Shown one piece after another: positions 23,623 through 59,425 of a DNA stretch of 64,000 bases. Numbering within the stretch: the stretch's first letter is position 1; every line of letters begins with the position of its first letter. The DNA is from an uncultured Alistipes sp. Its GTDB lineage: Bacteria > Bacteroidota > Bacteroidia > Bacteroidales > Rikenellaceae. The position numbers and the translations under genes were made by a program. The notes under the pieces are model-generated. The model searched no databases, had not been told where the DNA came from, and saw nothing but the letters and a program-made list of their open reading frames with translations. Location of the stretch: the NCBI GenBank assembly GCA_947364365.1, contig CANASP010000003.1, positions 81,258 to 145,257 on the forward strand, read 5' to 3'.

Positions 23623-26600
23623 TTAGAACGTGAGGTTGACGCCGAACGTGTAGATACGGCGGCCGCCGGCATAACCCTCGCTGTCGGAGTTACCGTTGTA
23701 GGTGTTGCCCGAAATACCGGTCTCGGGGTCGGTGTAGTACTTCTTGGCCTCGCCGAAGGTCAGCAGGTTGTCGCCCGAGAAGTAGAGCCGCACGCGGTCG
23801 ATGCCCGCCTTCGAGAGCCACTTGCGGGGCAGCGTGTAACCCACCGTGAGGTTGCGCAGACGCAGGTAGTCGTTGTCGATGACGTAGTAGTCGCTGTAGC
23901 CGATCGAGGCCGTCGAGCGGTAGTCGCAGTAGTTGATCGGGGTCTTGGCCGACGTGTCGCCCGGACCCGTCCAGCGGTCGGTCGTCAGATCCCACACGGG
24001 GCTCACGGCCGCACGGCCGTAACCGCCCAGCTCCGACTTGTTGTAGCAATACATCTTGCCGCCGAGCGAGTAGTACCACATGAACGAGACGTCGACACCG
24101 TAGAAGTCGAACGAGTTGGTGATCGAGCCGTAGACCTTGGGCAGCGCCGAACCGATCTTCACGTAGTCCTCCTCCTTGACCAGCTTGCTCGAATGGTCGA
24201 CAACGGTGCCGTCGGCCTTGTAGTAGGTGGCCACGCCCGTCTGGGGATCGATGCCGGCGAAGCGCGGCGCCCACAGGTCGTAGAGTGATCCGCCCTCCTC
24301 GAGCTTGTAGTTGGCCACGACGTTGGACCAGAAGCCCACCTCGTTGGGCAGGTAGGTCACCTTGTTGGTCAGCGTCGAGAGGTTGGCGTCGATACGCCAG
24401 CGGAAGTTGCGGCGGTTGAAGGCCTGGAAGCCCAGCGTGAGCTCGAAGCCGCTGTTGCGGATGTTGCCCAGGTTGACGTTCTTGCCCATGACCGAACCCA
24501 CCTGCGCCGACAGGGGCAGCTCGTAGTAGTAGAGCAGGCCGTCCGAATCGCGCGTGTAGTACTCCAGCGTACCGTTCAACCAGCCGAACAGGGCGAAGTC
24601 GGCAGCCACGTTCCACTGGCGGTTCTCCTCCCAGTGCAGATCGGGCGTGGCCATCGTCGAGGGCTTCAGACCGGCCTGGGCCCAAAGGTCGTCGCTCTCG
24701 TAGGTGCCCTGGTAGGCGTAGAGGTACTCCGAACCGGCCTTGCCGTTCGAGTTGCGGGCGATCAGGCGGTCGTTACCCGACGTACCGTAAGAGGCGCGCA
24801 GCACCAGGTTCTCCAGCCAGTCCGAGGCCGAAGCGGCGAAACGCTCCTTGGAGATGCGCCACGAAGCGCCCACTGACCAGAAGTTGCCCCAGCGGTTCTC
24901 CTTCGAGAAGCGCGACGAGCCGTCGCGGCGGTACGATGCCGACAGATAGTAGCGGTTGTCGTAGTTGTAGTCGGCCTTGGCGATCCACGAAAGCAGGGCG
25001 TACTTGTCGCTGCTCGACGAGGAGCTGAAGTAGTCCGAGGCCGAGGCGATCTGGTACTGGCCCAGCTGGTAGATGCCGCGTCCGTAGGAGTAGGCGTACT
25101 CGGTGCGGTAGTAGTAGGACTCCTGGCCCACCAGTGCGTTGATGTTGTGCTTGCCGAAGGCGTGGTCCCACGTCAGCACATTGGTGTTGGTCACCGACAT
25201 CACCTGGTAGTTCGAGCGCGAGGCGTCGCCGCCGCCGTTGCGGATCGTGATGCCGTAGGGTGCCTGCTGGTTGCCGCCCCACACCGCCGAGCCGTAGCCG
25301 TACGAGCGCGACTGGTTGTCGTCGAGGTTGATCGTCGACTTGAAGCGGATGTTCCACGGCAGGGTCACCTGCGCATAGTAGCGGGCGTTGATATTGCTAC
25401 CGTCGGAGTTCGAGAACGACTCGTCGTTGTCGTTGTCCCAGTAGTCGCCCAGCTGGCCGAAGGGCGAGGCTCCGAAGAAGCCCTGCGTGTAGGCGCCGTA
25501 CTGGTAGACGCGCTGGCCGGTCTTCTCCGAACGCTCCCAGTCGGTGTTGTCGGCGTTGCGCAGCCAGGGCGACGAGAAGGTGTTGGTGTAGTTGAGCGCG
25601 CGGGTCTGGCCGCCCGAGTTCTGACGGCTGTAGGAGTAGCGCACCGAACCGCCCATCGTCAGCCACTTGTTGATCTCGGTGTTGACGTTGGCGTTGAACG
25701 AGAAGCGCTTGTAGTAGTCGTTACCGCCGTAGCCCCGGTCGTTGAGGTAGCCGGCCGAGGTGAAGTAGTTGGTCTTGCCGTTCTGCGAGGCGCCCGAGAT
25801 GTCGAAGCTGTAGTTCTGGCGCAGCTTGTGCTGGTAGTAGGCGCCGAACCAGTCCCAGTCCGAAGGGCTCCAGGCATACTCCAGATCGGGGTTGATCGTG
25901 GGGTTGCCGTTGCCGTCGTGCAGCACCCAGTCGGCGTCGATGTGCTTGAAGGGCGAGATGTAGCCCGCCTGACCCTGCGAGTTGGTCACCTTGCGCGAGA
26001 AGATCTTGCCCAGCAGGTTCTGCGAAGCGTAGTCGCCCGCCTCGGCCGGCGAGGCGCCGTCGTGGTAGTGCTTGTCGTTGTAGAGCGCCTCCCAGAGCAG
26101 CAGCAACGACTGCTTGGGATCGGCCTTCTCGCCGTAGCCCACGGCGTTGTCCGACGTACCCCAGCTGGCGTTGACGTTGACCTTGAGCGAGCCGGTCTTA
26201 CCGGTCTTGGTGGTGATGATGACCACACCGTTGGCCGCACGCGAACCGTAGAGCGATGCCGCCGCGGCGTCCTTGAGCACCGTCAGCGACTCGATGTCGT
26301 TGGGGTTGATCGAGTTGAGCGAGCCGTCGTAGGGAATGCCGTCGACCACGTAGAGCGGCGTGGTCGTACCCGACATGTTGGCCACGCCGCGGATGGCGAT
26401 ACGCGCCTCGGCGCCGGGGTTGCTGGCGTCGTTGGTCACGTTCACGCCGGCCGACATACCCTGCAAGGCGTCGGTGAAGCCCGTGCCCGAGAATTTCGAC
26501 AGCTCGGAGGCCTTGACCACCGAGGCCGAACCGGTGAACGACGACTTTTTGGTCGTACCGTAGGCCACGACGATCACCTCGTCGATGTCGCTCGCCGCGG

Positions 26601-26889
26601 CTTTCAATACGATGCGCATCTGGCCGGAGATGGGAACCCGCTGCGTCTCGAAACCGAGGAACGACACCTCGATCGTCTTGTCGCCGGCCTTGGCGTTGAG
26701 CTCGAAGCGGCCGTCCGCCGTGGTGGCCACACCGACGTTCGATCCGACGACGACGACCGATGCACCGACCACGGGCATGTTCTCCTCGTCGACGACGATG
26801 CCGCGCACCTTCGTCTGTGCGAACAGCGATCCGCACATCAGCACGCAAAGAGCCGTCAAAAGCCATGTTCTGAAGTCTGCTTTTTTCAT
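23623..26889 (-). CDS. SusC/RagA family TonB-dependent transporter
   Basis: A 1088-residue outer-membrane beta-barrel. Order of parts: signal peptide (1-24), carboxypeptidase-regulatory-like beta-sandwich (TKVRGIVVDEENMPVVGASV, about 27-105), TonB box region (DEVIVVAYGTTKK), plug domain (ALQGMSAGVNV...VVDGIPYDGSLNSINPNDIESLTVLKDAAAASLYGSRAANGVVIITTKTG) and a C-terminal 22-strand barrel ending in TFGVNLTF. It imports oligosaccharides with SusD. It is the first gene of its operon, with a long, AT-rich upstream region containing regularly spaced TTAGAC words. Confidence 0.97.
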   Translation of the reverse strand: MKKADFRTWLLTALCVLMCGSLFAQTKVRGIVVDEENMPVVGASVVVVGSNVGVATTADGRFELNAKAGDKTIEVSFLGFETQRVPISGQMRIVLKAAASDIDEVIVVAYGTTKKSSFTGSASVVKASELSKFSGTGFTDALQGMSAGVNVTNDASNPGAEARIAIRGVANMSGTTTPLYVVDGIPYDGSLNSINPNDIESLTVLKDAAAASLYGSRAANGVVIITTKTGKTGSLKVNVNASWGTSDNAVGYGEKADPKQSLLLLWEALYNDKHYHDGASPAEAGDYASQNLLGKIFSRKVTNSQGQAGYISPFKHIDADWVLHDGNGNPTINPDLEYAWSPSDWDWFGAYYQHKLRQNYSFDISGASQNGKTNYFTSAGYLNDRGYGGNDYYKRFSFNANVNTEINKWLTMGGSVRYSYSRQNSGGQTRALNYTNTFSSPWLRNADNTDWERSEKTGQRVYQYGAYTQGFFGASPFGQLGDYWDNDNDESFSNSDGSNINARYYAQVTLPWNIRFKSTINLDDNQSRSYGYGSAVWGGNQQAPYGITIRNGGGDASRSNYQVMSVTNTNVLTWDHAFGKHNINALVGQESYYYRTEYAYSYGRGIYQLGQYQIASASDYFSSSSSSDKYALLSWIAKADYNYDNRYYLSASYRRDGSSRFSKENRWGNFWSVGASWRISKERFAASASDWLENLVLRASYGTSGNDRLIARNSNGKAGSEYLYAYQGTYESDDLWAQAGLKPSTMATPDLHWEENRQWNVAADFALFGWLNGTLEYYTRDSDGLLYYYELPLSAQVGSVMGKNVNLGNIRNSGFELTLGFQAFNRRNFRWRIDANLSTLTNKVTYLPNEVGFWSNVVANYKLEEGGSLYDLWAPRFAGIDPQTGVATYYKADGTVVDHSSKLVKEEDYVKIGSALPKVYGSITNSFDFYGVDVSFMWYYSLGGKMYCYNKSELGGYGRAAVSPVWDLTTDRWTGPGDTSAKTPINYCDYRSTASIGYSDYYVIDNDYLRLRNLTVGYTLPRKWLSKAGIDRVRLYFSGDNLLTFGEAKKYYTDPETGISGNTYNGNSDSEGYAGGRRIYTFGVNLTF

Positions 26890-27711: not shown

Positions 27712-29190
27712 TCACTCCGCGAAGAGCTCCTCCGAGGGGATCTCCCAGCGGTCGGTGCGGAAGGGCACCAGCGGCTGGCCGAGCGTGGTCTTGACGTTGC
27801 ACCGGACATAGTTGCGGAACCCGTAGCGCACGGCGACGGGCTCGGCCACCTCGTCGGCCCACACCTCGATCCTATTCTCGTTCCACTGCAAGCGCGCTTT
27901 GGCCGGATGGAAGACCCGGTCGGCACCGGCGATCTCGAATCCCACGGGGGTGATGACCTTGCCCTCGTCGTCGAGCCACGAGAAGCTGCGCGGGTCGGCC
28001 TGGTCGCCCGGAGCGGCCAGGTTGTCGAACGACAGGATCGCCCGGCCCTCCTCGGTCACCTCCATCGACCGGTAGGTCGGCGAATCGGACGGCACGCCCT
28101 CCACGCCGTAGTCGCGGCGCAGGGCCATATAGGCCAGCCGCTCGCCCACGGGGCGCTTGTCGGGCTCGTGGATCAGCGAGAACATCCCCAGATCCACCGT
28201 CGACGCGATCCCCGCGTGCGGGATCGCGGCCAACGCGTCATACTGCTGCTCGACCAGCGCGGCGCGGGCCCTGAAGTCGGGTCCGTCGTAGCGGTAGGGC
28301 GCGATCTCGACATAGTAGAAGGGCATCCGGTCGTCGCCCCACGCCGCACGCCACGACCGGACCAGCTCGGCCATCATCGTCTTGTAGTCGTAGTAGTTGC
28401 CGATGTTCGACTCGCCCTGGTACCAGATGAACCCTCGGGCCGTCATGCGCGTCGCGGGGGCCACCATGCCGTTGTAGAGCACCGAGGGCGCGGAGTGGGT
28501 CTCGGTCCAGTTGCGGGCGATGAAGTCGCGGTCGACGTCGAGCCCGGCCAGCGCCGCGGCGTCCATCCACGCCTCGATGTTGGTTCCGCCCCAATGCACG
28601 GCCACCAGCCCCACGGGCACGTCGAGGTAGCGGTGCAGGCAGCGGCCGAAGAAATAGCCCACGGCGCTGAACGCCCCCACGTTCGCGGGCGTGGGGTGCA
28701 GCCACGCGCCCCGGCAGTCGCGCTGCGGCACGGCCTGCGAGCTGCGCTCGACCGTGAAGAGCCGGATGTCGGGCCACAGCGCGGCGTCGCGCATCGTCTC
28801 CGCGGCGTGGTAGCAGGGCTGGCCGAAGAAGCCCTGCACGGGCATCTCCATGTTGGACTGCCCGGCGCAGATCCACACCTCGCCCAGCAGGATGTCGTCG
28901 AGCGTCAGGGGCTCGCCGTCGCTCAACGTGATCGAGTGGGGGCCTCCGGCCGCGCCCGTGCGCACCTTCGCCTCCCAATGGCCCGCGCGGTCGGCCCGCA
29001 CCGCATAGCGGGCGCCGTCCCACGAGGTGAGGATCTCCACCTCGGCGCCGGCGGCCGCGTCGCCCCACAGCCTAACCTCGGCGTCGCGCTGCAACACCAT
29101 GCCGCTGCCCAGCAGGGCCGGCAGCTCGATCTTCGCCCGGGCGGAAGCGACCGCGCACAGGGCGCACAACAAACACAGAATCCGTTTCAT
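27712..29190 (-). CDS. Sialate O-acetylesterase (SASA/GDSL family)
   Basis: A 492-residue secreted enzyme with a signal peptide (about 1-19). The N-terminal beta-domain (LPALLGSGMVLQRDAEVRLWG) and the SGNH catalytic block WICAGQSNMEMPVQGF (Ser112) are typical of bacterial 9-O-acetyl sialic acid esterases. RGFIWYQGESNIGN carries the conserved Gly/Asn block and PVGLVAVHWGGTNIEAWM is diagnostic. It would remove O-acetyl groups from sialic acids or other sugars so that glycosidases can act. It is the last gene of the enzyme operon, 13 bases after a GH97 gene, and is followed by a terminator. Confidence 0.88.
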   Translation of the reverse strand: MKRILCLLCALCAVASARAKIELPALLGSGMVLQRDAEVRLWGDAAAGAEVEILTSWDGARYAVRADRAGHWEAKVRTGAAGGPHSITLSDGEPLTLDDILLGEVWICAGQSNMEMPVQGFFGQPCYHAAETMRDAALWPDIRLFTVERSSQAVPQRDCRGAWLHPTPANVGAFSAVGYFFGRCLHRYLDVPVGLVAVHWGGTNIEAWMDAAALAGLDVDRDFIARNWTETHSAPSVLYNGMVAPATRMTARGFIWYQGESNIGNYYDYKTMMAELVRSWRAAWGDDRMPFYYVEIAPYRYDGPDFRARAALVEQQYDALAAIPHAGIASTVDLGMFSLIHEPDKRPVGERLAYMALRRDYGVEGVPSDSPTYRSMEVTEEGRAILSFDNLAAPGDQADPRSFSWLDDEGKVITPVGFEIAGADRVFHPAKARLQWNENRIEVWADEVAEPVAVRYGFRNYVRCNVKTTLGQPLVPFRTDRWEIPSEELFAE

Positions 29191-29202: not shown

Positions 29203-31185
29203 TTACATTTTTTCAAGTCGCACGACGAAGCCGCCGCCCGGGGCGCAATGCACCTTGAGCGGTTCGGAACAGTCGGTCGCAAAGGTCTCTATCGCATAGT
29301 CCTCGGCCACACGGTCGGCGTTCACGCCGTCGCGGAACAGCGTCGCGCGCCACCGGCCCCCGCCCAGCAGCGGGGCGAGATCGACCTCCACGTCGCGCGG
29401 CGTCCACGACGTGATGCCGCCGATCCACCACGTATCGCCCTTGCGGCGGGCCGTGACGACCCACTCGCCGCGCTCGCCCTGCAACACGCGCGTGCGGTCC
29501 ACCACCGTCGGGATCGAGGCGATGAACCGCGTGGTCTCCGCCTCGCGCTCGTAGTGGGTGGGGGTGTCGCAGAGGATGACCAGCGGCGAGTCGAAGATCA
29601 CGTAGAGCGCCACCTGATGTGCGCGCGTCCCCTGGCTCATGGGGCACTGGTCCACGGCGCGGAAGTTGGCCCGCGTGGCGTTGAGCATCGCCCCGGGGGT
29701 GTAATCGAGCGGCCCCACGGCACCGCGCGTGAAGGGCAGCAGCGCGTCGTTGCGCGGCATGTCGGCCTCGGTGCGGTCGGTCCACTTGAGCTGTTCGAGG
29801 CCGAAGACGCCCTCGTAGTTGACCACGTTGGGATAGGTGCGGCTGAGCCCCGTGGGTTTGTAGATCCCGTGGAAGTCGATCGTCAGGCCGTAGCGCGCCG
29901 TCGTCTCGGCCATGCGGTAGAGCGACTCGACAAGCGGCTGGTCCTGGCGGTCGAAGAAGTCGACCTTGAACCCCTTGACGCCCATCGCGGCATAGTGGGC
30001 GCAGACGGCCTCCAGCTGCTCGCAGAAGGTGTTGCCCACGGCCCACAGCAGGATGTCGACCCCGCGGCTCCGGCCGTAGGCGACGATCTTCGCCAGGTCC
30101 ACCTCGTCGCGCGGACGCAGCAGATCGTGGTGTTCGTAGCTGTACCAGCCGTCGTCGATGAGCACGTATTCGAGCCCGTAGCGGGCCGCGAAATCGACAT
30201 AATGTAGGTAGGTCTCGGTGTTGACGCCCGAGCGGAAATCGACGCCGGCCACCGTGATGCCGTTCCACCAGTCCCAGGCGGCATGGCCGCCGCGGATCCA
30301 CGACGTGTCGGCCACGCGCGACGGCGAGGCCGTCTGGTAGACCATGTTGTTGTCGGCCAGTTCGGCATCGGTGCGGCCGTAGACGAGCAGACGCCACGGG
30401 AAGGTCCGCGTCCCCTCGACACGGGCGATATGGCCGGCATAGGCCGACGGGTAGCGGGCGTTGCTGCCGTCCGTGACATAGTCGGTCGGATAGCCCGGGT
30501 GCTCGGCCTCGACCGAGTGGGGCTGCCCGCCCGCGCGGAGGAACATGCCCGGATAGCTCTCGACGTCGGATTCGGTGACGAGCACCCGTCCCGCCGCGCC
30601 GCAGTCGACGTAGAGGGGCGCGAAGATCAGCGTCTCGCGGCCACGGCACGCCGAGAGGGGCTCCGACAGGTACTGGTTCTCGAACGACGAGCGGTAGGGG
30701 TCGCTGCCGCCCGGACGCACGTAGGTCACCTCGGCGGCGAAATCGGCGGCGAAGCACCACTCGGCCGTCTCGCGCTCGACGCGAAAGGGCTCCTTCGACG
30801 CCGTGCGGAAGCGGTAGGCCACGCCGTCGGGATAGAGGCGGAACTCCACGGCGTAGTCGCCCGCGAACTCCAGTTCCAGCAGTTCGTAGTGCGTCTCGAA
30901 GAGGCGCTGACGGTAGAGCGGGGCCTCGATGGTCTCCCCGACCGTGCGGCGCACCGAGCGGCGCACGCGCGGCGCCTCGCCCAGCGTGCGCCCGTCGCCC
31001 AACGTCATCGCCAGGCGGCTCGGCAGCAGGATCGGCCCGGCCGGGGCGTCGACCGCATAGCGGATCGCATCGTCGACCTCGACGCGCAGCGTCAGGCGGT
31101 CGTTGGCAAGGGTATAGACGCGCGGTGCCGAGACCGCGACGGCGGCGGCGAACAGGGCCGCCGACAGCAACAGGAAACGTTTCAT
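29203..31185 (-). CDS. GH97 family alpha-glycosidase (retaining type predicted)
   Basis: A 660-residue periplasmic enzyme with a signal peptide. N-terminal GH97 beta-supersandwich (RLTLRVEVDDAIRYAVDAP...), then a TIM-barrel with NTETYLHYVDFAARYGLEYVLIDDGWY and GVKGFKVDFFDRQDQP. Asp409 of KVDFF aligns by position with the nucleophile Asp of retaining GH97 alpha-galactosidases; the inverting SusB type uses Glu residues instead. TPGAMLNATRANF and MSQGTRAHQVALYVIFDSPL are also family blocks. Alpha-galactosidase specificity is an inference. It is near-paralogous to the GH97 at 32935-34905, with a GH110 gene between them. Confidence 0.9.
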   Translation of the reverse strand: MKRFLLLSAALFAAAVAVSAPRVYTLANDRLTLRVEVDDAIRYAVDAPAGPILLPSRLAMTLGDGRTLGEAPRVRRSVRRTVGETIEAPLYRQRLFETHYELLELEFAGDYAVEFRLYPDGVAYRFRTASKEPFRVERETAEWCFAADFAAEVTYVRPGGSDPYRSSFENQYLSEPLSACRGRETLIFAPLYVDCGAAGRVLVTESDVESYPGMFLRAGGQPHSVEAEHPGYPTDYVTDGSNARYPSAYAGHIARVEGTRTFPWRLLVYGRTDAELADNNMVYQTASPSRVADTSWIRGGHAAWDWWNGITVAGVDFRSGVNTETYLHYVDFAARYGLEYVLIDDGWYSYEHHDLLRPRDEVDLAKIVAYGRSRGVDILLWAVGNTFCEQLEAVCAHYAAMGVKGFKVDFFDRQDQPLVESLYRMAETTARYGLTIDFHGIYKPTGLSRTYPNVVNYEGVFGLEQLKWTDRTEADMPRNDALLPFTRGAVGPLDYTPGAMLNATRANFRAVDQCPMSQGTRAHQVALYVIFDSPLVILCDTPTHYEREAETTRFIASIPTVVDRTRVLQGERGEWVVTARRKGDTWWIGGITSWTPRDVEVDLAPLLGGGRWRATLFRDGVNADRVAEDYAIETFATDCSEPLKVHCAPGGGFVVRLEKM

Positions 31186-31198
31186 ACTGCGATCCGTT

Positions 31199-32920
31199 CT
31201 ATCGTTCGATCACCACGTTGTCGCAATGCTCCACCACGAAGCGCCTGTCGGGATCGCCATAGGCGGGGTAGTCGGAGGTCGTCTCGATGCGGTTGCCGCG
31301 GAAGGTGAAGCCGTCGACGCAGTAGAGGTAGAGAATGCGTTCGTCGAAGCCGCGGAAGGTGTTGCCCTCGACGCGGATGTTGCGGTGGTAGCGGGCCCCC
31401 TCGCGCTCGGGGATGCCGCTGCCCACGGCGATCACGCCGCCGCCCCAGTTGAGCGAGCCGTACATGCAGTTGTCGAACACATTGTCGCGGATCACGACGT
31501 CGCGCACGCCCGACTGCTCGTACCAGTAGTTGCCGTCGCCCTCGAAAAGGATCGCGGCGCCGGGCGTGTGGAACGTGCACCCCTCGACCACGATGCGGCC
31601 GCGCGAACCGAGCAGCAGGCCGCGGGCGCGGTTGTTGCCGATGTAGCAGCCGCGGATCTCCACGTCGGGATACTCCCCGTCCTCGGCCACCACGTGGCCC
31701 GGCTGCACGCGCTCGGGCAGCCGTCCGGCCAGCCGCACCTCGGCGTACTCGGCGTTGAGGTAGCGCACCTGGGCGATCTTCACGCGGGCGTAGCTCTCCA
31801 TCGTGCGGTTGTCGACCACCTCGATCTGCATGCCCGGGCGGAGGAACCGCACGCCATACTGGCCGCTGTTGCGCCAGCGCAGCAGCACCCGATCGTCGGC
31901 CAGCCGCCGCTCGATCGACATGTACCAGCCGTGGATGTTCGTCGCGTCGTCCTTCTGGTTGCGGAACACGCAGTCGATCATGCGGATCGCCCCCTTGCAG
32001 TTGACGAAGTGGGTGGCGTCGGCCGAGATGCTGACGATGCGGCCGGAACCTTCGGCCGGCTCCACGCGCACGCGCTCCAGCGTGATGTCGCGGCTGCTCT
32101 GGGCGATCACGCCCATGCCGCCGCAGTGGTTGATCGCCACGTCGGCGAGCGTGAAGCCCGCGCAGTCGAGCAGCGTGAAGGCGGGGTTCCAGCGCGCCGT
32201 GGCGCCGAAGAGCATGGTGTTGCCGATCTGCGCCGTGCCGAAGTCCTTGCGGTAGAGGCGCCAGTTGCCCTCGGCGGTCTTCACCGCGGGGTAGCTCTGG
32301 CCCCAGATCCAGTAGTCGTTGGCGTGGTAGGCCACCTCCTTCCGTTCGGTGTCGAACTCCAGCAGGCTCGAATAGGGATAGGTCTTGCCCGCCGCATCGC
32401 GGAAGCGCAGCGACCCGTCGTGCAGGTCGACGCGGTAGTCGTCGGGAAAGCGGAACTCGAACCACCCGTCGCCCGCCGCCACGATGCGCCCCTCCGAGAC
32501 GAACGGACGCTCGTAGTCGATCGAGAGGTTCTCCACGCGGATGCGCTCGCACCCTTCGAGGCTGAAGGCCGACATGAAGCCCGAGAAGAGCAGCCGCGTG
32601 CCGTTGCCGCGCACGGTGAAGTCCTTCATGCCCTCCAGCAGGAAGGCGATGCGCTTCATCGAGGGGTCGTTGTTGCTGATGTATTCGTAGCGTTCGAAGG
32701 CCCCGTCGGGCTTGAGCGGCAGCGTGCCGCCCGGCAGGATGAGCTCCGAGGCGCGCAGGCGGGCGCAATCCTCCAGCGCGGCCCGCAGCGCGGGCATCGC
32801 ATCGACGGTCGACGTGGAGTCGGCCTGCAGATAGTCCTGGAGCCGGACGGTGCCTTTGGCAGCGGCTCCGAGCGTCGTCGCCAGCGCGACCGCAAGCGAG
32901 ATAAGACGAGTGAGTTTCAA
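31199..32920 (-). CDS. GH110-like alpha-1,3-galactosidase (right-handed beta-helix)
   Basis: A 573-residue secreted protein with a signal peptide. The sequence matches the Bacteroides GH110 enzymes: ALEDCARLRASELILPGGTLPLKPDGAFERYEYISNNDPSMKRIAF, then DYRVDLHDGSLRFRDAAGKTYPYSSLLEFDTERKEVAYHANDYW, and a long beta-helix (FVNCKGAIRMIDCVFRNQKDDATNIHGWY...). GH110 removes terminal alpha-1,3-linked galactose such as in the blood-group B antigen or linear alpha-Gal. It lies in the middle of the enzyme operon between two GH97 genes. Which GH110 subtype (branched-only or linear-active) cannot be read here. Confidence 0.82.
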   Translation of the reverse strand: MKLTRLISLAVALATTLGAAAKGTVRLQDYLQADSTSTVDAMPALRAALEDCARLRASELILPGGTLPLKPDGAFERYEYISNNDPSMKRIAFLLEGMKDFTVRGNGTRLLFSGFMSAFSLEGCERIRVENLSIDYERPFVSEGRIVAAGDGWFEFRFPDDYRVDLHDGSLRFRDAAGKTYPYSSLLEFDTERKEVAYHANDYWIWGQSYPAVKTAEGNWRLYRKDFGTAQIGNTMLFGATARWNPAFTLLDCAGFTLADVAINHCGGMGVIAQSSRDITLERVRVEPAEGSGRIVSISADATHFVNCKGAIRMIDCVFRNQKDDATNIHGWYMSIERRLADDRVLLRWRNSGQYGVRFLRPGMQIEVVDNRTMESYARVKIAQVRYLNAEYAEVRLAGRLPERVQPGHVVAEDGEYPDVEIRGCYIGNNRARGLLLGSRGRIVVEGCTFHTPGAAILFEGDGNYWYEQSGVRDVVIRDNVFDNCMYGSLNWGGGVIAVGSGIPEREGARYHRNIRVEGNTFRGFDERILYLYCVDGFTFRGNRIETTSDYPAYGDPDRRFVVEHCDNVVIER

Positions 32921-32934
32921 GGTCGGTAAGATTT

Positions 32935-34905
32935 TTAGAGTTTACGGATAATCAGGGCGAAACCGCCGCCCGAGGCGAGGTCGAAGCGGAGCGTCGAACC
33001 GCTGTCGATGCGTTGGGTCGAGAGGCTGTATTGCGTCGGGAGGTCGTCCGCCACGTCGCGCATCACGCGCGCCTCGTAGTGCGCCCCCTCATCGAGGAAC
33101 GAGCAGTCGAGTTCGAGGCTGCGGGGCGTCCAGTCGGTCAGGCCGCCCACGTACCACACCCCGTCGCGCTCGCGCGCCGTGACGATATACTCGCCCAGAC
33201 GGCCGGCGAGCACCCGCGTGCGGTCCCACCGCGTGGGGATCGCGGCGATGAACTCGGTGCACGGCGCATCGGCGCGGTAGAGCGACGGCGACTCGCACAG
33301 CATGGCCAGCGGCTGGTCGAAGACCACGAACGTCGCCGCCTGGTGCGTGCGCGTGCCCTGCGTCATCGGACGCCGGTAGTCGATGCGGAACCCCTCGCGC
33401 GTGGCGTTGCGGTAGCCGCCCGAAGTGTAGTCGACGGCCCCCTGCGCCATGCGGATGTAGGGGAAGGTCACGTCGTAGGCCATCATGTCGGGGTTGGCCC
33501 ACTTGAACTCCTCCATGCCGAACACCCCCTCGAAGTTGACGATGTTGGGGAAGGTGCGTTCGAGCCCCGTGGGCTTGTACATGCCGTGCAGGTCGACCAT
33601 CAAGCGGTGGCGGGCCGCCGCCTCGGCGATGCGGTAGACCATCTCCACGGCCAGCTGGTCGTCGCGGTCGAAGAAGTCGACCTTGAACCCCTTGACGCCA
33701 CGGGCCGCATAGTGGGCCATCGCCTCTTCGAGCTTGTCGTCGAGCACGTTGGCCACCGCCCAGAGGAAAACGCCCACGCCGCGCTCGCGGCCGTAGGCGA
33801 TGATGCGGTCGAGATCCACGTCGTCGATCGCCCGCATCACGTCGCCGCCGCGCGGGTCCGACCACCCTTCGTCCAGGATGACGTACTCCAGCCCGTAGTC
33901 GGCGGCGAAGTCGATATAGGCCTCGTAGGTGGCCGTGTTGACGCCCGGCGTGAAATCGACATCGGCGAGACAATAGTCGTTCCACCACTCCCAGGCCGCC
34001 TTGCCGCCGGCGATCCAGTCGGTCGACTCCACGCGGCTCGGCTCGCCGAGGGCGTAGACCAGGTTGCACACCGGCAGCTCGGTATCGGCACCGATGGCCA
34101 GCAGGCGCCACGGGAAGGTCCGCGACCCCTCGGTCCGGGCGATGCAGTCGTGGCGCGAGACGACGCGCAGCTGGCACCGCCGCGGCGTCGTGACGAGGCT
34201 GTCGGGCAGGCGGGCGAACGTGCCGCGCAGCACGCCTCCGTCGCCCGTGAGCATCATGCCGGGATAGGAGCGCAGGTCCGACTCGCTCACCAGCACCTTC
34301 ACGCCCGACGCGAGCCCGACGGCCAGCGGCGTGAGCGCCAGCCCGTCGGGGCGGAACTCCGCCACCGTGGTCACGTCGTAGGGGAACTGGAAGGCGTTGT
34401 CGACTCCGTCGGAATAGGCGGCCCAGCAGCGGTCGGCCCCGTCGAAACGGAACTCGGCCACCTCGTCCTCGACGACGATCGGTTCGCGCCGCGAGGTGAC
34501 GAAGCGGTAGGCGCACCCCTCGTCGTAGGCACGGAACTCCACGGCATAGTCGCCGTCGAAGCGCACCAGCAGCTTGTTGTAGCGCACCTCGACCGAAGGC
34601 TGGCGGTAGAGCGGCGCGTCGATCCGTTCGTCGACCCGCTCGCGCGCGGTCGACCGCACGACCGGCGCCGCGCCCAGCGTGTCGCCGCCCTCCAGGCAGA
34701 GCGCGATGGCCGAACGGTCCACCACCCGCTCGCCGCGGTAGGCGACCGAATAGGTCAGCCGCTCGCCGGTTTCGACAATGACCACCACGTCGCCGTCGGG
34801 CGACACGAGGCGGAAGGGAGCCTGCTCGCGGCATCCCGTCAGCGCCGCGAGGGCGAAGGCGAGGAGCGGCAGGAGATGGGCAAAACGCAAATCAGCGATC
34901 TTCAT
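32935..34905 (-). CDS. GH97 family alpha-glycosidase lipoprotein (retaining type predicted)
   Basis: A 656-residue lipoprotein (lipobox ALTGC). The GH97 layout is the same as its neighbour: beta-supersandwich, then TATYEAYIDFAADYGLEYVILDEGWSDPRG and GVKGFKVDFFDRDDQL with Asp410 at the retaining nucleophile position, and TSGGYRNATREGF, MTQGTRTHQAATFVVFDQPL. Two GH97 genes in one operon suggest different linkages or surface versus periplasmic placement: this one is lipidated, the other has a plain signal peptide. It follows the six-hairpin protein gene by 22 bases. Confidence 0.9.
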   Translation of the reverse strand: MKIADLRFAHLLPLLAFALAALTGCREQAPFRLVSPDGDVVVIVETGERLTYSVAYRGERVVDRSAIALCLEGGDTLGAAPVVRSTARERVDERIDAPLYRQPSVEVRYNKLLVRFDGDYAVEFRAYDEGCAYRFVTSRREPIVVEDEVAEFRFDGADRCWAAYSDGVDNAFQFPYDVTTVAEFRPDGLALTPLAVGLASGVKVLVSESDLRSYPGMMLTGDGGVLRGTFARLPDSLVTTPRRCQLRVVSRHDCIARTEGSRTFPWRLLAIGADTELPVCNLVYALGEPSRVESTDWIAGGKAAWEWWNDYCLADVDFTPGVNTATYEAYIDFAADYGLEYVILDEGWSDPRGGDVMRAIDDVDLDRIIAYGRERGVGVFLWAVANVLDDKLEEAMAHYAARGVKGFKVDFFDRDDQLAVEMVYRIAEAAARHRLMVDLHGMYKPTGLERTFPNIVNFEGVFGMEEFKWANPDMMAYDVTFPYIRMAQGAVDYTSGGYRNATREGFRIDYRRPMTQGTRTHQAATFVVFDQPLAMLCESPSLYRADAPCTEFIAAIPTRWDRTRVLAGRLGEYIVTARERDGVWYVGGLTDWTPRSLELDCSFLDEGAHYEARVMRDVADDLPTQYSLSTQRIDSGSTLRFDLASGGGFALIIRKL

Positions 34906-34927: not shown

Positions 34928-36964
34928 TCACTGGATACGGAGGGTCGTCTCGCCCCCCTCGGCGATGCGCACCGTGCGCACGCGGCCTGTCGTGCGGTCG
35001 GTCATCGCGATTTCGAGCCGTCGGTCCCCGATGCGGCGCACCTCGAGGTCGAAGTCGCCCCCGAAGGCGCGGATCCGGCGCAGCGCCATGCGGTCCCATC
35101 CTTCGGCCAGGCGCGGCGCGAGGGTGAACGAGCGGAAGCCCGTGGGCCGGATGCCGAACATCCCTTCGGTCACCACGCGGCAGTAGAGGCCGCTCTCGGC
35201 GGCCAGGTGGCGCTGCGACCCCTCGGGCCACGCCTCGATGGGATAGGGCACGTGGTCGCCCAGCAGGCGGCGCGCCGAATAGTCGTGGAGGAAGCGTCCA
35301 GCCGTCGCGGTGGCTCCGGCGACATACATGCCCCGCAGCGCATAGAGGGTCGAGCGGTCCCAGAAGGTGTCGCTCCCCTGCTGCGTCAGCACGCCGTCGG
35401 CCGTGAAGAGCGCGGGCGACGTGAGCGCCGCCACGGTCCCCTCGGCCCGGTCGACGAGGCCCGCGATGAGCGGCATGCAGATCCACGAGCGCAGCAGCTC
35501 GCAGCCCGCATAGTAGCGGTAGGTGGCGAAGCCCCCCACCTCGGCGCCGAAGTGGCGCTCGATGGCGGCGGCGAGCCGCACGGCCTCGCGGCGGTAGTCG
35601 GCCAGCCGGCGGGCGTCGACCCCCAGCTCGCGTCCCAGCGCGGCGGCCGAGAGCAGGGCGTCGTAGCAGAGCGTCGAGGTGCAGAGGTTGGCGTCGCCCG
35701 ACGGGAAACGCCCCTCCAGCTCGTCGCTGTCCGAGGCCACCACCCCGTCGGCGTCGACCTGCCGGCGGCAATACTCCAGACACCATTCGATGAGCGGCCA
35801 CAGCTCGCGCGCCTCGGCACGGTCGGCCCGCGCCAGCGCATAGCGTGCGGCGCCGTAGGCGATCATCGCCGCGTCGCCGCGGTCGCCCGCGCCGGCCCAG
35901 ATGTCGCGCCCCTCGGCGATGATCGAGCTGGGAAGCGGACGGTAGTCGTCGTTCATGAAGCGGGCGAAGTGGCGGAACGCGTTGAGCGCCGAGGCGTTGC
36001 CCGTCGCATAGCCCAGGAACGGGAAGAAGGGATTGGCGTATTCGGCCTGGTCGTTGGCCCAGATCGCGGCGTAGTACGACTCGCCGCCCGGGGCGTGCAT
36101 CGGCCCGCCCGCCGTGCGCACGATGCTCTCCGAGACGCGGATCTTGGCGAAGCGGAAGGCGCGGTCGATCACCTCGTCGGGGGTCTCCAGCACCAGGTTG
36201 TCGTCGAGCTGCGCGACCAGCGCCAGGCGGGCCGCCAGCTCGGCGTCGAGATCGGGCCGCAGCGGCTCCTCCGCGGCCCGGTGGGCCTGGTAGGTCACGC
36301 CGAAGCGCAACTTCGCGCCCGGCTCCAGACGGAACGTGCCCGCCCCCTGCAGGTCGGCCCGCACCGTATAGGCGCCGTAGAGCCCCTTGTCGGCCTCGGT
36401 CGCGTAACGCACGGCGTAGTCGGGGACGTGGAGCACGATCGCCCGGTCGGCGATGTTGCGCAACGTGTAGATCTCGCCCATCAGCGGCTTGTCGGTCGAG
36501 GGGAAGATCACCCGCTCGGCCTCGACCACGGGCCGGGTCGCCGTGCCGCCGCCCGTGCCCACGTTGGCCTTGCCCACGGCCAGGCGGCTCCGCACGCGCA
36601 CGCAGCCGTCGATCTCGACGCACTCCACCCGCTCGTCGCGCAGCGGCAGGCCCCCCACCGTCACCAGCGACGGAATGTCGCCCGCCATGCGGTGCATCAG
36701 GCTGGCGTGGGTGTTGTCGGGCAGCGTGCGCAGCAGCGGGAAGACCAGCGAACGCTCCGCGAGGAAACGCCCCTCAGCGTCGACGCCCCAGCGCAGCACC
36801 ACGGCCATCCGCTCGCCGCTCATCTCGATGTGGTCGGCGTGCGGCAGCGAGGCCGCGTCGACCCGCCACACGATGCCGTTCCCTTCGGCAGGCGACCAGC
36901 GGGTCTGCGCCCCGGCGCCGGCGGCCCCCAGCAGCGCGAGGGCCAAAACAACTCGTTTCATCAT
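34928..36964 (-). CDS. Six-hairpin glycosidase-like protein of unassigned family
   Basis: A 678-residue secreted protein with a signal peptide (MMKRVVLALALLGAAGAGAQ). An N-terminal beta-sandwich (about 25-270) is followed by an (alpha/alpha)6-like domain: ESYYAAIWANDQAEYANPFFPFLGYATGN, IWAGAGDRGDAAMIAYGAARYALARAD, WPLIEWCLEYCRRQVDADGVVASDSDELEGRFPSGDANLCTSTLCYDALLSAA and GMFGIRPTGFRSFTLAPRLAEGW. This resembles clan GH-L/GH-M proteins and GH95/GH78-like enzymes, but I cannot name a GH family. Acidic residues in ANDQAE and SDSDELEG are candidates for catalysis. It is the second gene of the enzyme operon, after the M60 peptidase. Confidence 0.65.
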   Translation of the reverse strand: MMKRVVLALALLGAAGAGAQTRWSPAEGNGIVWRVDAASLPHADHIEMSGERMAVVLRWGVDAEGRFLAERSLVFPLLRTLPDNTHASLMHRMAGDIPSLVTVGGLPLRDERVECVEIDGCVRVRSRLAVGKANVGTGGGTATRPVVEAERVIFPSTDKPLMGEIYTLRNIADRAIVLHVPDYAVRYATEADKGLYGAYTVRADLQGAGTFRLEPGAKLRFGVTYQAHRAAEEPLRPDLDAELAARLALVAQLDDNLVLETPDEVIDRAFRFAKIRVSESIVRTAGGPMHAPGGESYYAAIWANDQAEYANPFFPFLGYATGNASALNAFRHFARFMNDDYRPLPSSIIAEGRDIWAGAGDRGDAAMIAYGAARYALARADRAEARELWPLIEWCLEYCRRQVDADGVVASDSDELEGRFPSGDANLCTSTLCYDALLSAAALGRELGVDARRLADYRREAVRLAAAIERHFGAEVGGFATYRYYAGCELLRSWICMPLIAGLVDRAEGTVAALTSPALFTADGVLTQQGSDTFWDRSTLYALRGMYVAGATATAGRFLHDYSARRLLGDHVPYPIEAWPEGSQRHLAAESGLYCRVVTEGMFGIRPTGFRSFTLAPRLAEGWDRMALRRIRAFGGDFDLEVRRIGDRRLEIAMTDRTTGRVRTVRIAEGGETTLRIQ

Positions 36965-36995: not shown

Positions 36996-38291
36996 TTATT
37001 GCCAGCACGCCTCCAGCATGCGCATTTCGTCGGGGGTGTAGCAGGTCGCCGCGACATCCTCGCCCGCGTGCTTCGAGACCACGCGCCAGAAGTTGCACAC
37101 CTTCTCCCAGCGGCTCATCCCCTCGAACGAGGCGTCGTCGGCCGCGCGCAGCTCGCGGAAGGCCGCCTTGAAGGGCTCCCAGCCGTAGCGGTTCTTGATG
37201 CGCATATAGGTATAGTGGAGCGCGTCGCCGTTGTTCTCGGCCAGGCCGCGGCCCAGCGTCGCGTCGTAGGCGAGCTTGTAGTAGTCGGTATTATCGCCCG
37301 TGTAGAGCACGTCGCGCTGCGACATGGTGCCCCCGAGCGCCTCCAGCGCATAGGACATGCGGAAGTTGGCGAAGATCTCGTCGTTCCAGTTCCACGCCGT
37401 GCAGCCCGTCTGGTTGAAGTCGTGGCCGATCTCGTGCATCAGGCCGAAGCCCCAGTCGCCCTGCGCGGCGAAGCGCTCGAATAACTGCGCGTTCTTCACC
37501 CCGGCGTTCCACAGGATGGGGTTGCCGGCCAGCGCCCAGTAGCCGCGCTCCATGCCCGGCGTAGAGAGGATCAGGATCTTCTCGCCGTCGTAGGGGAAGC
37601 CGCCCACCAGATCGCCGTAGGCCTCGTAGACGCGGTCCCAGCAGGCCACCAGACGCTCCATCGCCTCGTCGTCGACGGTCACCATCGCAGGCTCCAGCGC
37701 GATGCGGATGTGCTCGCCCTCGTAGAGACGGAGGCTGTCGGTCACCTCCTCGATCCACACGCGGTCGTAATAGACGCGGCCCGAGGCCACGCCGCCGTTG
37801 TAGGTCCCTTCGGGGAATCCCAGGCCGCAGCACACCGTCGCCGAGCCGTCGCGCGCGGGGGTGAAGTCGACATGGACCTCGCGCCAGTCGTTGTCGCCGT
37901 AGAGGAACTCCGAGGCGTTCCACGGCTGGTCAGCATGCGCCTCCATGTCGAGAAAGAGCACGGCGCCGCGCCCCTCGGCCACCTCCTCGGTGCGGACCGT
38001 CGCTCCGAAGCGATAGATCGCACCCGGACGCAGCCCCTCGATGCGGCGGCGCACGGCCACGCACGCACGCTCGCGGCTCTCGACCGCCAGGCAACCGCCG
38101 CCGTCCGGGCCGGCAGCGGGATCGATGCGCACCGACGCGCCGTCGGGCAGCGAATCGACCGTCCAGCGACCGAGTACGGTTTCGGAGTCAAAACGCTCCG
38201 AGAGGATCGGGCCGGAATCCCCGGCGCACGACGTCGCCGCACCGCACACTCCGAGCAGCAGCGCGAAAACCAAAGAAGAGAGACGATACAT
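36996..38291 (-). CDS. M60-like (enhancin/mucinase) zinc metallopeptidase lipoprotein
   Basis: A 431-residue protein with a signal peptide and lipobox-like AATSC. A galactose-binding-like beta-sandwich (about 30-175) precedes the peptidase. The zinc site is HEIGH (286-290) with a downstream Glu in WNWNDEIFANF (about 305), the HExxH...E gluzincin pattern of Peptidase_M60. Family members cleave mucin-type O-glycoproteins, so it would expose glycans or cut glycopeptides at the cell surface. It is the first gene of the enzyme operon, 77 bases after a predicted transcription start and divergent from the regulator. Confidence 0.85.
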   Translation of the reverse strand: MYRLSSLVFALLLGVCGAATSCAGDSGPILSERFDSETVLGRWTVDSLPDGASVRIDPAAGPDGGGCLAVESRERACVAVRRRIEGLRPGAIYRFGATVRTEEVAEGRGAVLFLDMEAHADQPWNASEFLYGDNDWREVHVDFTPARDGSATVCCGLGFPEGTYNGGVASGRVYYDRVWIEEVTDSLRLYEGEHIRIALEPAMVTVDDEAMERLVACWDRVYEAYGDLVGGFPYDGEKILILSTPGMERGYWALAGNPILWNAGVKNAQLFERFAAQGDWGFGLMHEIGHDFNQTGCTAWNWNDEIFANFRMSYALEALGGTMSQRDVLYTGDNTDYYKLAYDATLGRGLAENNGDALHYTYMRIKNRYGWEPFKAAFRELRAADDASFEGMSRWEKVCNFWRVVSKHAGEDVAATCYTPDEMRMLEACWQ

Positions 38292-38540: not shown

Positions 38541-38548
38541 TACATTTG
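38541..38548 (+). promoter_or_regulatory. -7 promoter box (TACATTTG) of the hybrid regulator
   Basis: A perfect TAnnTTTG match. It shows that the true start is the ATG at 38604, since the in-frame ATG at 38520 lies upstream of this box. Confidence 0.6.
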
Positions 38549-38603: not shown

Positions 38604-41600
38604 ATGAAAAAAACGCAAACCCGCAAGGGGGGGGGTGAGCTGCGACGGAGCGTGCACGCGCTGTGCGCCGTCGTGGCGCTGATCCTCGGACCGACGGACC
38701 GGCTCTCGGCCCAGTTCCGCTACTACACCACCGAGACGGGGCTCCCGTCCAACACCGTCAACACGATCTACCAGGACCGCCAGGGATTCGTCTGGGCCGG
38801 CACCATCTCGGGTCTCTCGCGCTACAACAGCCTCGATTTCCAGGATTTCGACGGGCAGGACAACCTGCTGACCGGGAAAAACGTCTACGCCCTCTGCGAG
38901 CCCGCCGACTCGACGCTCTGGATCGGGTCGAGCGAGGGGCTCTTCGCACTCAACCGCCAGCACTCCACCCTGCGCCGCATCCCCATCCGCGTCGGCGACC
39001 GCATCCACGAGACGATGATCTACCGCATGAAGGCCGACGAGCGGGGCAACGTCTGGGTCGGGGGCTACGGACAGGGACTCTTCCGCTACGATGCGGCCGC
39101 GGACCAGTGGAAAGGCTACGACCTCAAATCGGAAAAGGCCGTCGTCTCCGACATCCTCATCGGCAGCGACCGCGCGGTGTGGGTTCTCTGCATGGACCGC
39201 AACATCTACCGCTACAACGCCGGCCGCGACGAGTTCACCGCCATCCCCCTCGTCGACCGGTTCACCAAACGGGCCATCGGCGAGGCGCGCTGCTGCTGCC
39301 AGGACTCCTTCGGCGACATCTGGATCTGCGACGCCAACGCCGACCTCTTCCGCCTCGACCTGACCACCATGACGGCCGTCTCGGCGACCGTGCGCGCCCC
39401 CGGTTCGCAGATCACCAGCCGCACGCTCATCGAGCAGACCCCCGGGCAGCTGCTCGTGGGAACCAACCTCGGACTGCTCGCCTTCGACACGGCGCACCGC
39501 CGCTACGAGTGGATCGACCGCGGCGACCGGCGCCAGGCGGGCACGCTCAACGACCGCTTCGTCCACGCCCTGATGAAGGACCGCGACGGCGGACTGTGGG
39601 TCGGCACCTACTTCGGCGGCATCGACTACCGCCCCTACGACACCGAGGTCGTGCGGGCGATCTACCCCTCGGACGGGTGCGGCAACATCATTTCGAGCCT
39701 CAGCGAGATGAGCGACGGACGCATCCTGGTGGGCAGCGACGACGGCGGTCTGAGCCTCTACGATCCCCCGACGGGGAGCTACGAGCGGCTGACGATCGAT
39801 CCCGACAACCGCAACCTGAACATCCACTCGATCTTCGTCGACTACCGCGACATCTGGGTGGGGACCTACGGCAACGGGCTCTACCGCCTCGACACCGCCC
39901 TCGGGGTCGTGCGCCACTACGGCGACGACGACGTCTCGACGGGCGACATGAACGTCTACTCGATCTTCCGCGACCCCTCGGAACAGCTGTGGATCGGAAC
40001 CAAGCGGGGAATCTGCCGCTACGACGCGGCCGGCGACCGGTTCGAGCGCACGGTGACCGTCAACGACAACTGCGACATCCTCGACATCTGCCGCACGGGC
40101 GACACGCTCTGGTTCGCCTCGCAGGGCGGCGGCGTGATCCGCTACGACATCGCCACGGGCCGCTACGCCTCGCTGCTCGACGAACAGCCCGACTCGCCGA
40201 GCCACGCCACCTGCCTGGCCCAGCACGACGGCCGGCTCTACATCGGCACCATGAAGGGGCTCTACCGCCTCGAAGGCTCCTCGGCGGAACCCTGCCCGTC
40301 GCTCCCGCGCGACTGCGTCATCAAGAGCCTCGTGGCCGACAACAGCGGGCTGTGGATCACCACCGACCAGGGGCTCTTCTGCTACGATTCCGAGGAGCGT
40401 CTGCGCCGCTTCACGGCCGAGGACGGCTTCATGAGCCAGTCGTTCAGCTTCAATTCGGCCATCCGGCTCTCCACGGGCGAGATCCTCGCGGGCACCGACC
40501 GGGGCATCAACGCCTTCCACCCCAAGATGCTCCGCGAGACCCCGCTGCCCCGCGACCTGCGGGTGGTCATCACCGACTTCGACGCGATCGACGAAAAGGG
40601 GCGCCGGAGCCTCTCCACCGACACCGGCGCCATCCGCATCGAGAGCGACAACGCCTCGTTCTCCATCGACTTCGTCGCGCTCAACTACCGCTCGCCGAGC
40701 AAGAGCCGTTACCGCTACCGCCTCGCGGGCCACGACGACGCGTGGAGGACCTTCACGCGCGACCGCAACTTCCGCGACGTGGTCTACACCGACGTCGAGC
40801 CCGGCAACTACCGCTTCGAGGTCGCAGCCGCCGCAGCCTTCGACGAGCCCTTCGGTCCCGTCACGCCGCTCGACATCGTCGTCAAACGCCCCCTGAGCCA
40901 CATCCTGCGCAGCGGCCTGCTCCTCGCCGCAGCCGCAGCGCTGCTCGCGGGAACCCTTCTGGTCTTCATCCGCAACGGCCGGCTGCGCTACGCCCTGAAG
41001 GCCCGCCGCCGCGAGAGCGTGCGGCACCGCCTCTACCAGAATATCCTCGAGGAGATCATCCGCGAGGTGAACAACACGCTGGAGATGCAGACGCTGGCCG
41101 CACGGCTCGACGAGGGCGGGCAGGAGCTCCCGGCCTCGCTCAAGTCCGACTTCGCGATCCTCAAGAACAACATCCTGCGGCTGCACCGCTTCATCGACGA
41201 GCGGTCGGCCGCCTACCGCCGCCTCGCCTCCGACCAGCGGTCGGCCGTGGCGGAACTGCGCAGCGACCTGGCCCCCGTCGTCGAGGCGATCTGCACGGCC
41301 TACCGCGGCCTGGCGGCCGACTGCTACGGCGTGGAGATCGACGTGAGGGTCTCGGACCGGGCCCGCACGACCCGCGCGGCCATCGACCCCACGGCGATGA
41401 TCCACGCCCTGACGGGGCTCGTCGACCGGATGATCGACCACGCCGACCGGCGGATCCTCCTCAGCCTCGACGCCACCCCCGAGGCATTCGTCGTGCGCAT
41501 CGCCCGCGACGGCGACGTCCGGGCCGGGCTGCCGCCGGTCGACGAGTGGCTGACCCGCCGGGGCGTCGCCGTCGTCCCGGTCGAGCCGCGCGAGGGGGAG

Positions 41601-42479
41601 CGGGTCGCCGCCGAGCTGCGCTTCGCCCTCCCGGCCCCGGAGACGACGCTCCCCGAGACGGCGGCCGACCCGGCCGAGGCGGGCTTCGACGCGGCCTGCT
41701 ACAACATCGCCGTGGTCGATCCCTCGCTCCACTTCCGCCCCTTCACCGCCGCGGGCGACGGCTGTGATTTCCGCCTGGTGCCCTGCGCCGATCCCCGCAC
41801 GGTGCTCCGGGCCCTCGACGACTACCCCGTCGCAGCGGTGGTCTACGACGCCGAGGCCCCCGCGGGGCGCGACGAGGCCTTCCGCGAGGCGCTCCACAAC
41901 GACCGGCGCCACGTTCTCGCCGTCGCCGTGTGCAACGCCCTCACCGACGCCGACAAACGCGTATGCCTCCGCCAGGGGGCCGACATCTGCCTGGCCAAGC
42001 CCCTCTCCCCCGAGTTGCTCGCGGCCCAGATCGAGGCGCTGCTGCGCCTGCGGCGCCACACCGACGACATGCCGGCGCCCGCCGCCGCACCCGCCGTCTC
42101 GCTCATCGACGAGGCGCTGCGCCGGGACAAATTCTCGGCCCGCGTATGCGATTTCATCGACAGCCGGCTCGAAGACCCCGAGCTCTCGGTCGACGACATC
42201 GCCCAGGCGATGAACGTCAGCCGCGCGACGCTCTTCAACCGGCTGAAGACCACCATGAACACCACGCCCAACATCCTCATCCGCATGCTCCGGCTCGAAC
42301 GCGCCGCCCGCATGCTCCGCCAGCCGGGCGTGCGCATTTCGGAGGTCTATTACACCGTGGGCTTCATCTCGGGATCCTACTTCGCCAAGCTCTTCCGACA
42401 GGAGTTCGGCGTCACCCCCAAGGAGTATTCCAACCGCTACGGCGGCGAGGAGACCGGCGAGACACCCTCCGACGAATGA
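38604..42479 (+). CDS. Hybrid two-component regulator with degenerate kinase (HTCS-like)
   Basis: A 1291-residue protein. Order: signal peptide (1-35); 14-blade-type two-component propeller repeats (about 38-690); Y_Y_Y domain; membrane helix (about 770-792); DHp-like helices; an ATPase-like region (about 890-1020); receiver (about 1030-1155); AraC-type HTH (about 1182-1279, LSVDDIAQAMNVSRATLFNRL...GFISGSYFAKLFRQEFG). The usual ISHE.RTPL phospho-box reads ILEEIIREV: the His is Glu816. No N box or DxGxG box is recognisable. The receiver keeps Asp1082 (VVYDAEAP) and the Lys of LAKPL. The likely role is sensing glycan fragments in the periplasm and controlling the adjacent locus. A G9 tract lies in codons 9-11. 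Confidence 0.85.
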   Translation: MKKTQTRKGGGELRRSVHALCAVVALILGPTDRLSAQFRYYTTETGLPSNTVNTIYQDRQGFVWAGTISGLSRYNSLDFQDFDGQDNLLTGKNVYALCEPADSTLWIGSSEGLFALNRQHSTLRRIPIRVGDRIHETMIYRMKADERGNVWVGGYGQGLFRYDAAADQWKGYDLKSEKAVVSDILIGSDRAVWVLCMDRNIYRYNAGRDEFTAIPLVDRFTKRAIGEARCCCQDSFGDIWICDANADLFRLDLTTMTAVSATVRAPGSQITSRTLIEQTPGQLLVGTNLGLLAFDTAHRRYEWIDRGDRRQAGTLNDRFVHALMKDRDGGLWVGTYFGGIDYRPYDTEVVRAIYPSDGCGNIISSLSEMSDGRILVGSDDGGLSLYDPPTGSYERLTIDPDNRNLNIHSIFVDYRDIWVGTYGNGLYRLDTALGVVRHYGDDDVSTGDMNVYSIFRDPSEQLWIGTKRGICRYDAAGDRFERTVTVNDNCDILDICRTGDTLWFASQGGGVIRYDIATGRYASLLDEQPDSPSHATCLAQHDGRLYIGTMKGLYRLEGSSAEPCPSLPRDCVIKSLVADNSGLWITTDQGLFCYDSEERLRRFTAEDGFMSQSFSFNSAIRLSTGEILAGTDRGINAFHPKMLRETPLPRDLRVVITDFDAIDEKGRRSLSTDTGAIRIESDNASFSIDFVALNYRSPSKSRYRYRLAGHDDAWRTFTRDRNFRDVVYTDVEPGNYRFEVAAAAAFDEPFGPVTPLDIVVKRPLSHILRSGLLLAAAAALLAGTLLVFIRNGRLRYALKARRRESVRHRLYQNILEEIIREVNNTLEMQTLAARLDEGGQELPASLKSDFAILKNNILRLHRFIDERSAAYRRLASDQRSAVAELRSDLAPVVEAICTAYRGLAADCYGVEIDVRVSDRARTTRAAIDPTAMIHALTGLVDRMIDHADRRILLSLDATPEAFVVRIARDGDVRAGLPPVDEWLTRRGVAVVPVEPREGERVAAELRFALPAPETTLPETAADPAEAGFDAACYNIAVVDPSLHFRPFTAAGDGCDFRLVPCADPRTVLRALDDYPVAAVVYDAEAPAGRDEAFREALHNDRRHVLAVAVCNALTDADKRVCLRQGADICLAKPLSPELLAAQIEALLRLRRHTDDMPAPAAAPAVSLIDEALRRDKFSARVCDFIDSRLEDPELSVDDIAQAMNVSRATLFNRLKTTMNTTPNILIRMLRLERAARMLRQPGVRISEVYYTVGFISGSYFAKLFRQEFGVTPKEYSNRYGGEETGETPSDE
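38627..38635 (+). repeat. Nine-G homopolymer in the start of the regulator gene
   Basis: GGGGGGGGG falls in codons 9-11 of the regulator (Lys-Gly-Gly-Gly-Glu). Loss or gain of one G would shift the frame before the signal peptide core. It is a candidate slipped-strand phase-variation tract. Confidence 0.7.
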
Positions 42480-59299: not shown

Positions 59300-59425
59300 T
59301 TGTTTGGAGTTTGAATTGTGTTTTTAAAATGCCATTTTTAACGGTTTCCTATTGCGTGAGGACCGGTCGGACGGCACTCACACACAAGGGAAAGAGGGGG
59401 GGGGTAATTGCGGATCATGCGGCGG
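59300..59425. other. Spacer upstream of fimbrillin 3 with homopolymer tract
   Basis: 126 bases between fimbrillins 2 and 3. It is longer than the other early junctions and contains the G9 run (59396-59404) and an AT-rich stretch just before the gene, so it may hold a separate promoter, though no clear TAnnTTTG box was seen. Confidence 0.45.
59396..59404 (+). repeat. Nine-G homopolymer in the spacer upstream of fimbrillin 3
   Basis: Nine G on the plus strand (C9 in the transcript), 97 bases upstream of the fimbrillin 3 ATG. Changes in length could alter promoter or leader structure. Confidence 0.65.

Follow-up and report, generated by a model that had tools for sequence, protein, structure and literature searches.

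HTCS regulators of Bacteroides polysaccharide utilization loci (PULs) carry a propeller, a Y_Y_Y domain and an AraC-type HTH, and their genes lie beside SusCD and enzymes. The nearest described cases of switching at homopolymers come from other groups of bacteria. In bvgS of Bordetella pertussis, a one-base change in a C6/C7 tract truncates the hybrid sensor-regulator and switches its regulon (PMC1891110), and in Campylobacter jejuni many in-frame polyG and polyC tracts per genome turn genes on and off by slippage (PMC4965091, PMC4235727). A change from 8C to 7C is described in mga of group A streptococci, a case whose status as phase variation is doubted in a review (PMC11868660). In Bacteroides fragilis, the SusC/SusD and capsule genes undergo phase variation by DNA inversion (PMC12632263). 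Among the matches listed by a search of the open-access literature, none described phase variation at homopolymers of HTCS genes, which is weak evidence.

The window analysed here (a whole stretch of 64,000 nucleotides from an uncultured Alistipes sp.) contains a tract of nine Gs within the reading frame of an HTCS-like regulator gene that diverges from a glycan locus (Table 1). We consider it probable that this G9 tract is a slipped-strand switch, because the regulators of related species often bear such runs and some of them are off by a one-base change. The proposed switch shares with bvgS a one-base homopolymer change inside a sensor-regulator gene; bvgS is the virulence regulator of a pathogen, with a short C6 at a single locus, whereas here many HTCS genes, a length of nine and glycan uptake are involved. 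As in C. jejuni, many in-frame G/C tracts of similar length are found in one genome, but the C. jejuni papers deal chiefly with genes for surface modification, in a species that lacks mismatch repair, in contrast to the mutS1 gene, the HTCS regulators and the clustering at exactly nine observed here. The change in mga also concerns a homopolymer in a regulator gene, although Mga is no sensor-regulator of glycan uptake. Within Bacteroidales, a parallel is offered by B. fragilis, whose surface and uptake genes switch stochastically, the mechanism there being a DNA inversion, not slippage, located outside the reading frame of the regulator.

Table 1. Coordinates of the regulator gene, its elements and the divergent glycan locus in the window.
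Feature	Position	Strand	Basis or remark
SusD-like gene	21941-23608	-	Pfam
SusC-like TonB-dependent transporter gene	23623-26889	-	Pfam
SASA (sialic-acid-type) acetylesterase gene	27712-29190	-	Pfam
Second GH97 glycoside hydrolase gene	29203-31185	-	Pfam
GLAA-B beta-barrel / beta-helix protein gene	31199-32920	-	Pfam
GH97 glycoside hydrolase gene	32935-34905	-	Pfam
678-aa protein	34928-36964	-	No match in Pfam scan
M60-like peptidase gene, divergent neighbour of regulator	36996-38291	-	Weak Pfam match, E 7.8e-6
-7-like box TACATTTG	38541-38548	+	Fits TAnnTTTG; candidate promoter element, from sequence only; ends 55 bases before ATG
HTCS-like regulator gene, 1291 aa	38604-42479	+	Signal peptide, propeller repeats, Y_Y_Y, AraC-type HTH
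G9 tract GGGGGGGGG	38627-38635	+	Codons 8-11 of regulator gene; flanks A and T
In-frame internal GTG, codon 17	38652-38654	+	Possible alternative start; sequence
Likely signal peptide, hydrophobic core ~residues 18-29	38655-38690	+	Hydropathy; downstream of G9 tract
Y_Y_Y domain, residues 694-743	40683-40832	+	Pfam
HTH_18 DNA-binding domain, residues 1199-1277	42198-42434	+	Pfam

The regulator possesses the propeller and Y_Y_Y sensor as well as the AraC-type DNA-binding domain of the HTCS family. Unlike the HTCS proteins of Bacteroides PULs, it has no recognisable histidine kinase domains (HisKA, HATPase_c) or receiver domain, no match to any of them being obtained at E values up to 0.1, where a diverged domain is possible, and it is therefore termed HTCS-like and not a proven HTCS. 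When five other HTCS proteins were submitted to the same domain scan, all three domains were clear in four of them and the fifth, L141, showed a receiver and a weak HisKA match with no HATPase_c. Three propeller/Y_Y_Y/AraC regulators (P0001, L137 and L154, L137 being scanned in two pieces) came out of Pfam without histidine kinase domains. No ortholog of the regulator was found in 180 genomes of the genus, where the best match reached 34% identity, nor in a scan of genome contigs, a set that may lack the records of this genome or of its closest neighbours; the one relative that it yielded was 29% identical in the best-matching segment. Phage records were also considered as a comparison set, and the 13 records, each less than 60% identical, were set aside.

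On the other side of the divergent region, a SusC/SusD pair and glycan enzymes lie beside the regulator, as in a polysaccharide utilization locus. The enzyme set, which includes a GLAA-B protein that we take to be GH110-like, suggests a substrate of the host-mucin type, and from the adjacency of the genes the regulator may be presumed to control SusCD and six further genes.

The preliminary description had reported nine Gs at the position given in Table 1, which the window sequence bears out. Its assignment of the tract to codons 9-11 was nearly right, the run starting on the last base of codon 8 (AAG), filling codons 9 and 10 (GGG GGG) and reaching two bases into codon 11 (GGT). The present length is indeed the in-frame form, as had been proposed, the frame being open for 1291 aa from the ATG at 38604. 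In the readings of the other frames downstream, the gain of one base brings a TGA as codon 12 and the loss of one base a TGA after 25 codons, and the hydrophobic core of the signal peptide is out of frame after either change. The claim that a one-base slip breaks the gene before the signal-peptide core can be read thus holds in both directions. A long homopolymer in the reading frame and the truncation of the product by a one-base change are two marks of a slipped-strand phase-variable gene; a third, a tract class above chance, was found at the level of the genome and of the genus.

The first null considered for the tract, that such a run arises by chance where GC content is high, fits the number of G8 matches in the window (5 seen against 5.43 expected, thus no excess) and is contradicted by the run-length spectrum, since, at lengths of 6, 7, 8 and 9, G/C runs were seen 7, 0, 1 and 2 times against 36.6, 10.1, 2.8 and 0.8 expected. 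Codon shuffling of the regulator gene gave a run of at least nine in 27 of 300 shuffles. Exact runs of G8, G9 and G10 number 8, 40 and 3 in the genome from which the window is taken, and 1729, 4732 and 352 in the 180 genus genomes, exact G9 being more frequent than exact G8 in 148 of these genomes, less frequent in 23 and as frequent in 9. Genomes of the genus have a median of 16 G9 runs, versus 2 in 148 genomes of the same order outside it, and at least 10 G9 runs occur in 129/180 genus genomes versus 6/148 of the others, in a comparison that covers G9 but not G8 and is uncorrected for GC content. In the intergenic sequence of a 400-kb sample of genome G153, G/C runs of 6, 7, 8 and 9 bases occurred 3, 3, 7 and 12 times (expected 19.3, 4.7, 1.1 and 0.3), and in that of the G013 sample 6, 1, 0 and 2 times (expected 10.5, 2.4, 0.5 and 0.1), no run of at least 10 being present in either sample. 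A/T runs, on the other hand, decay smoothly with length in the same sequences (window, G153 and G013 samples). These counts and spectra place the G9 tract of the window in a non-random, genus-wide class, and it looks as if G/C runs lengthen past six to eight and then stay at nine. Absence of mismatch repair as a cause is ruled out by a mutS1 match above the cut-off in all six genomes searched, and slippage may therefore be slower than in Campylobacter.

Among the own-genome tracts of at least eight bases, 37 of the 49 distinct tracts classified, a subset of the tracts of the genome, were called intergenic by a rough gene caller, a simple codon-bias script that also served to call the genes of the window and of the G153 and G013 samples. 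Three G9 tracts of this genome (L069, L078 and L088) share a common flank, CCCTCCGCC-G9-C, and perhaps belong to a small repeated GC-rich intergenic element. The window has a further G9 at 59396-59404, upstream of the minus-strand fimbrillin-like gene 58340-59299, and another fimbrillin-like gene (54478-56982) contains a minus-strand G8 at 54873-54880.

In six genomes, 43 Y_Y_Y places were considered, of which 40 were fetched and, with the gene of the window, gave a set of 41 HTCS genes; two places left out were both below the family cut-off. The recurrence of tracts in the same kind of regulator is borne out by this set, a G/C run of at least eight being found inside 19 of the 41 genes (own genome 3/4, G013 9/17, G011 4/6, G153 1/8, G171 1/1 and G172 1/5). 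Compared with codon shuffling, a null that retains the GGG and CCC codons contributed by the tracts themselves, runs of exactly nine were in excess (16 vs 2.7), whereas those of six (7 vs 59) and seven (0 vs 15) were scarce. In G013, 10 tracts fall in 67 kb of HTCS genes, whereas the rest of the coding sequence sampled, about 340 kb, has 4, so that the density in HTCS genes is about 13 times higher (binomial p 8e-6, on the assumption that tracts are independent); no clear HTCS enrichment was seen in G153. The nine closest homologs of the window protein (L005-L013) all have a tract in the gene, at two propeller sites and in the region before the receiver, and another HTCS gene of the own genome, L138, has an in-frame G12. 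L150 and L164 have their tract at the 3' end, and slippage there would matter little. Outside this set, a Peripla_BP_3/AraC-type regulator of the own genome (L083, contig C7) contains an in-frame G9 whose immediate flanks (AAG-G..-TGAG) are identical to those of the tract in the window.

The preliminary description had suggested on/off switching of the regulator, and the broken state that this implies was found in four other HTCS genes. The alignment of L012 (G171) with L013 (G172) covers 4627 bases at 99.6% identity and contains 16 mismatches and two gaps; L012 has G9 and an intact frame, L013 has G8 and a stop soon after. In L137, from the own genome, a C10 leaves the propeller and Y_Y_Y in one frame and the HTH in another. 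L171, from G013, has a C10 directly after the signal peptide, which is out of frame with the rest, and is the closest parallel to the G9 tract of the window. Finally, L187, from G149, has a C8 with the kinase part in another frame. At the L187 site, 25 orthologs comprise 15 with exactly C9, one with C8 (the broken form) and 9 with interrupted codons, so that the question whether synonymous codons replace the tract has a mixed answer there; the orthologs with exactly C9 use two codon registers. Intact relatives were found for both HTCS sites compared.

Several other explanations of these data have to be weighed. The tract might be the by-product of a mutational attractor, in which the G/C runs of the genus, once at about six, extend to nine and go no further, the broken form being a rare defect with no selected switch; the run of the window would then do no harm, given its place in the n-region of the signal peptide and a length that preserves the frame. 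That intergenic sequence, with no frame at stake, likewise peaks at nine (nine 12, eight 7 and ten 0 in the G153 sample), that most of the own-genome tracts examined are intergenic, and that a SusC-like gene of G153 appears split across a G9 are all in agreement with such an origin, whereas the concentration of the coding tracts in HTCS genes, their presence in SusC-like genes as well and the retention of nine through synonymous change at one site argue against it, and we regard it as unlikely. The intergenic majority, the tracts at the 3' end in L150 and L164 and the interrupted orthologs speak against a pure switch, while the HTCS concentration and the C9 kept in two registers speak against a purely neutral reading.

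The position of the start codon has also to be considered, since with a downstream start, for example at the in-frame internal GTG (38652), which is codon 17 and not codon 16 as previously given, the tract would be in an untranslated leader and have no frame effect, or an effect on translation only. This start would keep the hydrophobic core intact but would leave the signal peptide to begin without basic residues, whereas the ATG at 38604 gives a Lys/Arg-rich beginning at 55 bases from the -7-like box; as the frame break of the parallel gene L171 also falls just after the signal peptide, we judge a downstream start to be quite improbable. Still less credit can be given to assembly or sequencing error as the source of the observed lengths. 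Homopolymers are error-prone, the genome of the window is a draft of 38 contigs with 87% completeness, and contig ends at polyG and polyC tracts are reported for Illumina assemblies of meningococci (PMC4235727), but error would be at odds with the smooth decay of A/T runs in the same sequences, with the rarity of G9 in the genomes outside the genus and with a site that is exactly nine in 15 of 25 genomes by way of different codons.

A slippage switch in the regulator gene is thus the reading that we favor, and it could operate as follows. With nine Gs the whole regulator would be made; after the gain or loss of one G, translation would end without an in-frame signal-peptide core, leaving a cell without regulator, in which the divergent enzyme and SusCD genes presumably could not be induced. 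On this reading, tract length would differ between cells of the population, the switch would be thrown often and in both directions, and the operon would fall silent once the regulator is lost. The tract is one of a genus-wide class of G/C runs that appear to settle at nine and that recur at different positions in regulators of the same kind, and the simplest joint model would be that of a mutational attractor at nine combined with selection holding nine as the ON length in regulators where an occasional loss pays.

Tracts were also noticed in transporter genes and near putative promoters. Nine-base tracts of C or G occur in the SusC-like genes L090 and L098 of the own genome and L221 of G013, either within or directly behind the signal peptide or close to the N-terminus. 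In G153, the SusC-like L224 (214-3569) is apparently split around a G9, with plug and barrel in two overlapping frames, which is why we abandoned the idea that the ON length is nine in every case. TAnnTTTG is the -7 motif of Bacteroidota, and three G9 tracts of the own genome (L065, L070 and L086, on contigs C1, C2 and C8) lie 0, 8 and 7 bases upstream of such boxes, therefore inside the apparent -33/-7 spacer. Slippage there could change promoter spacing, as it does at porA of Neisseria. A wider proposal, which we put forward tentatively and with less than even confidence, is that of a genome-wide phase-variation network, in which mutation and selection would hold G/C tracts at exactly nine, glycan regulators and SusC-like transporters would be switched singly by slippage, and each cell would draw its own set of active glycan loci, the regulator being the switch point and the promoter-spacer tracts a further layer.

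In the literature found, the phase variation of gut Bacteroidales takes the form of DNA inversion, from which slippage in regulators would differ. The preference for exactly nine, together with the scarcity of sixes, is a testable puzzle on replication slippage in mutS-bearing bacteria. If the switch proposed here is true, the glycans usable by a cell would be partly set by chance and inherited, and its state would be readable from the tract lengths in existing metagenome reads.
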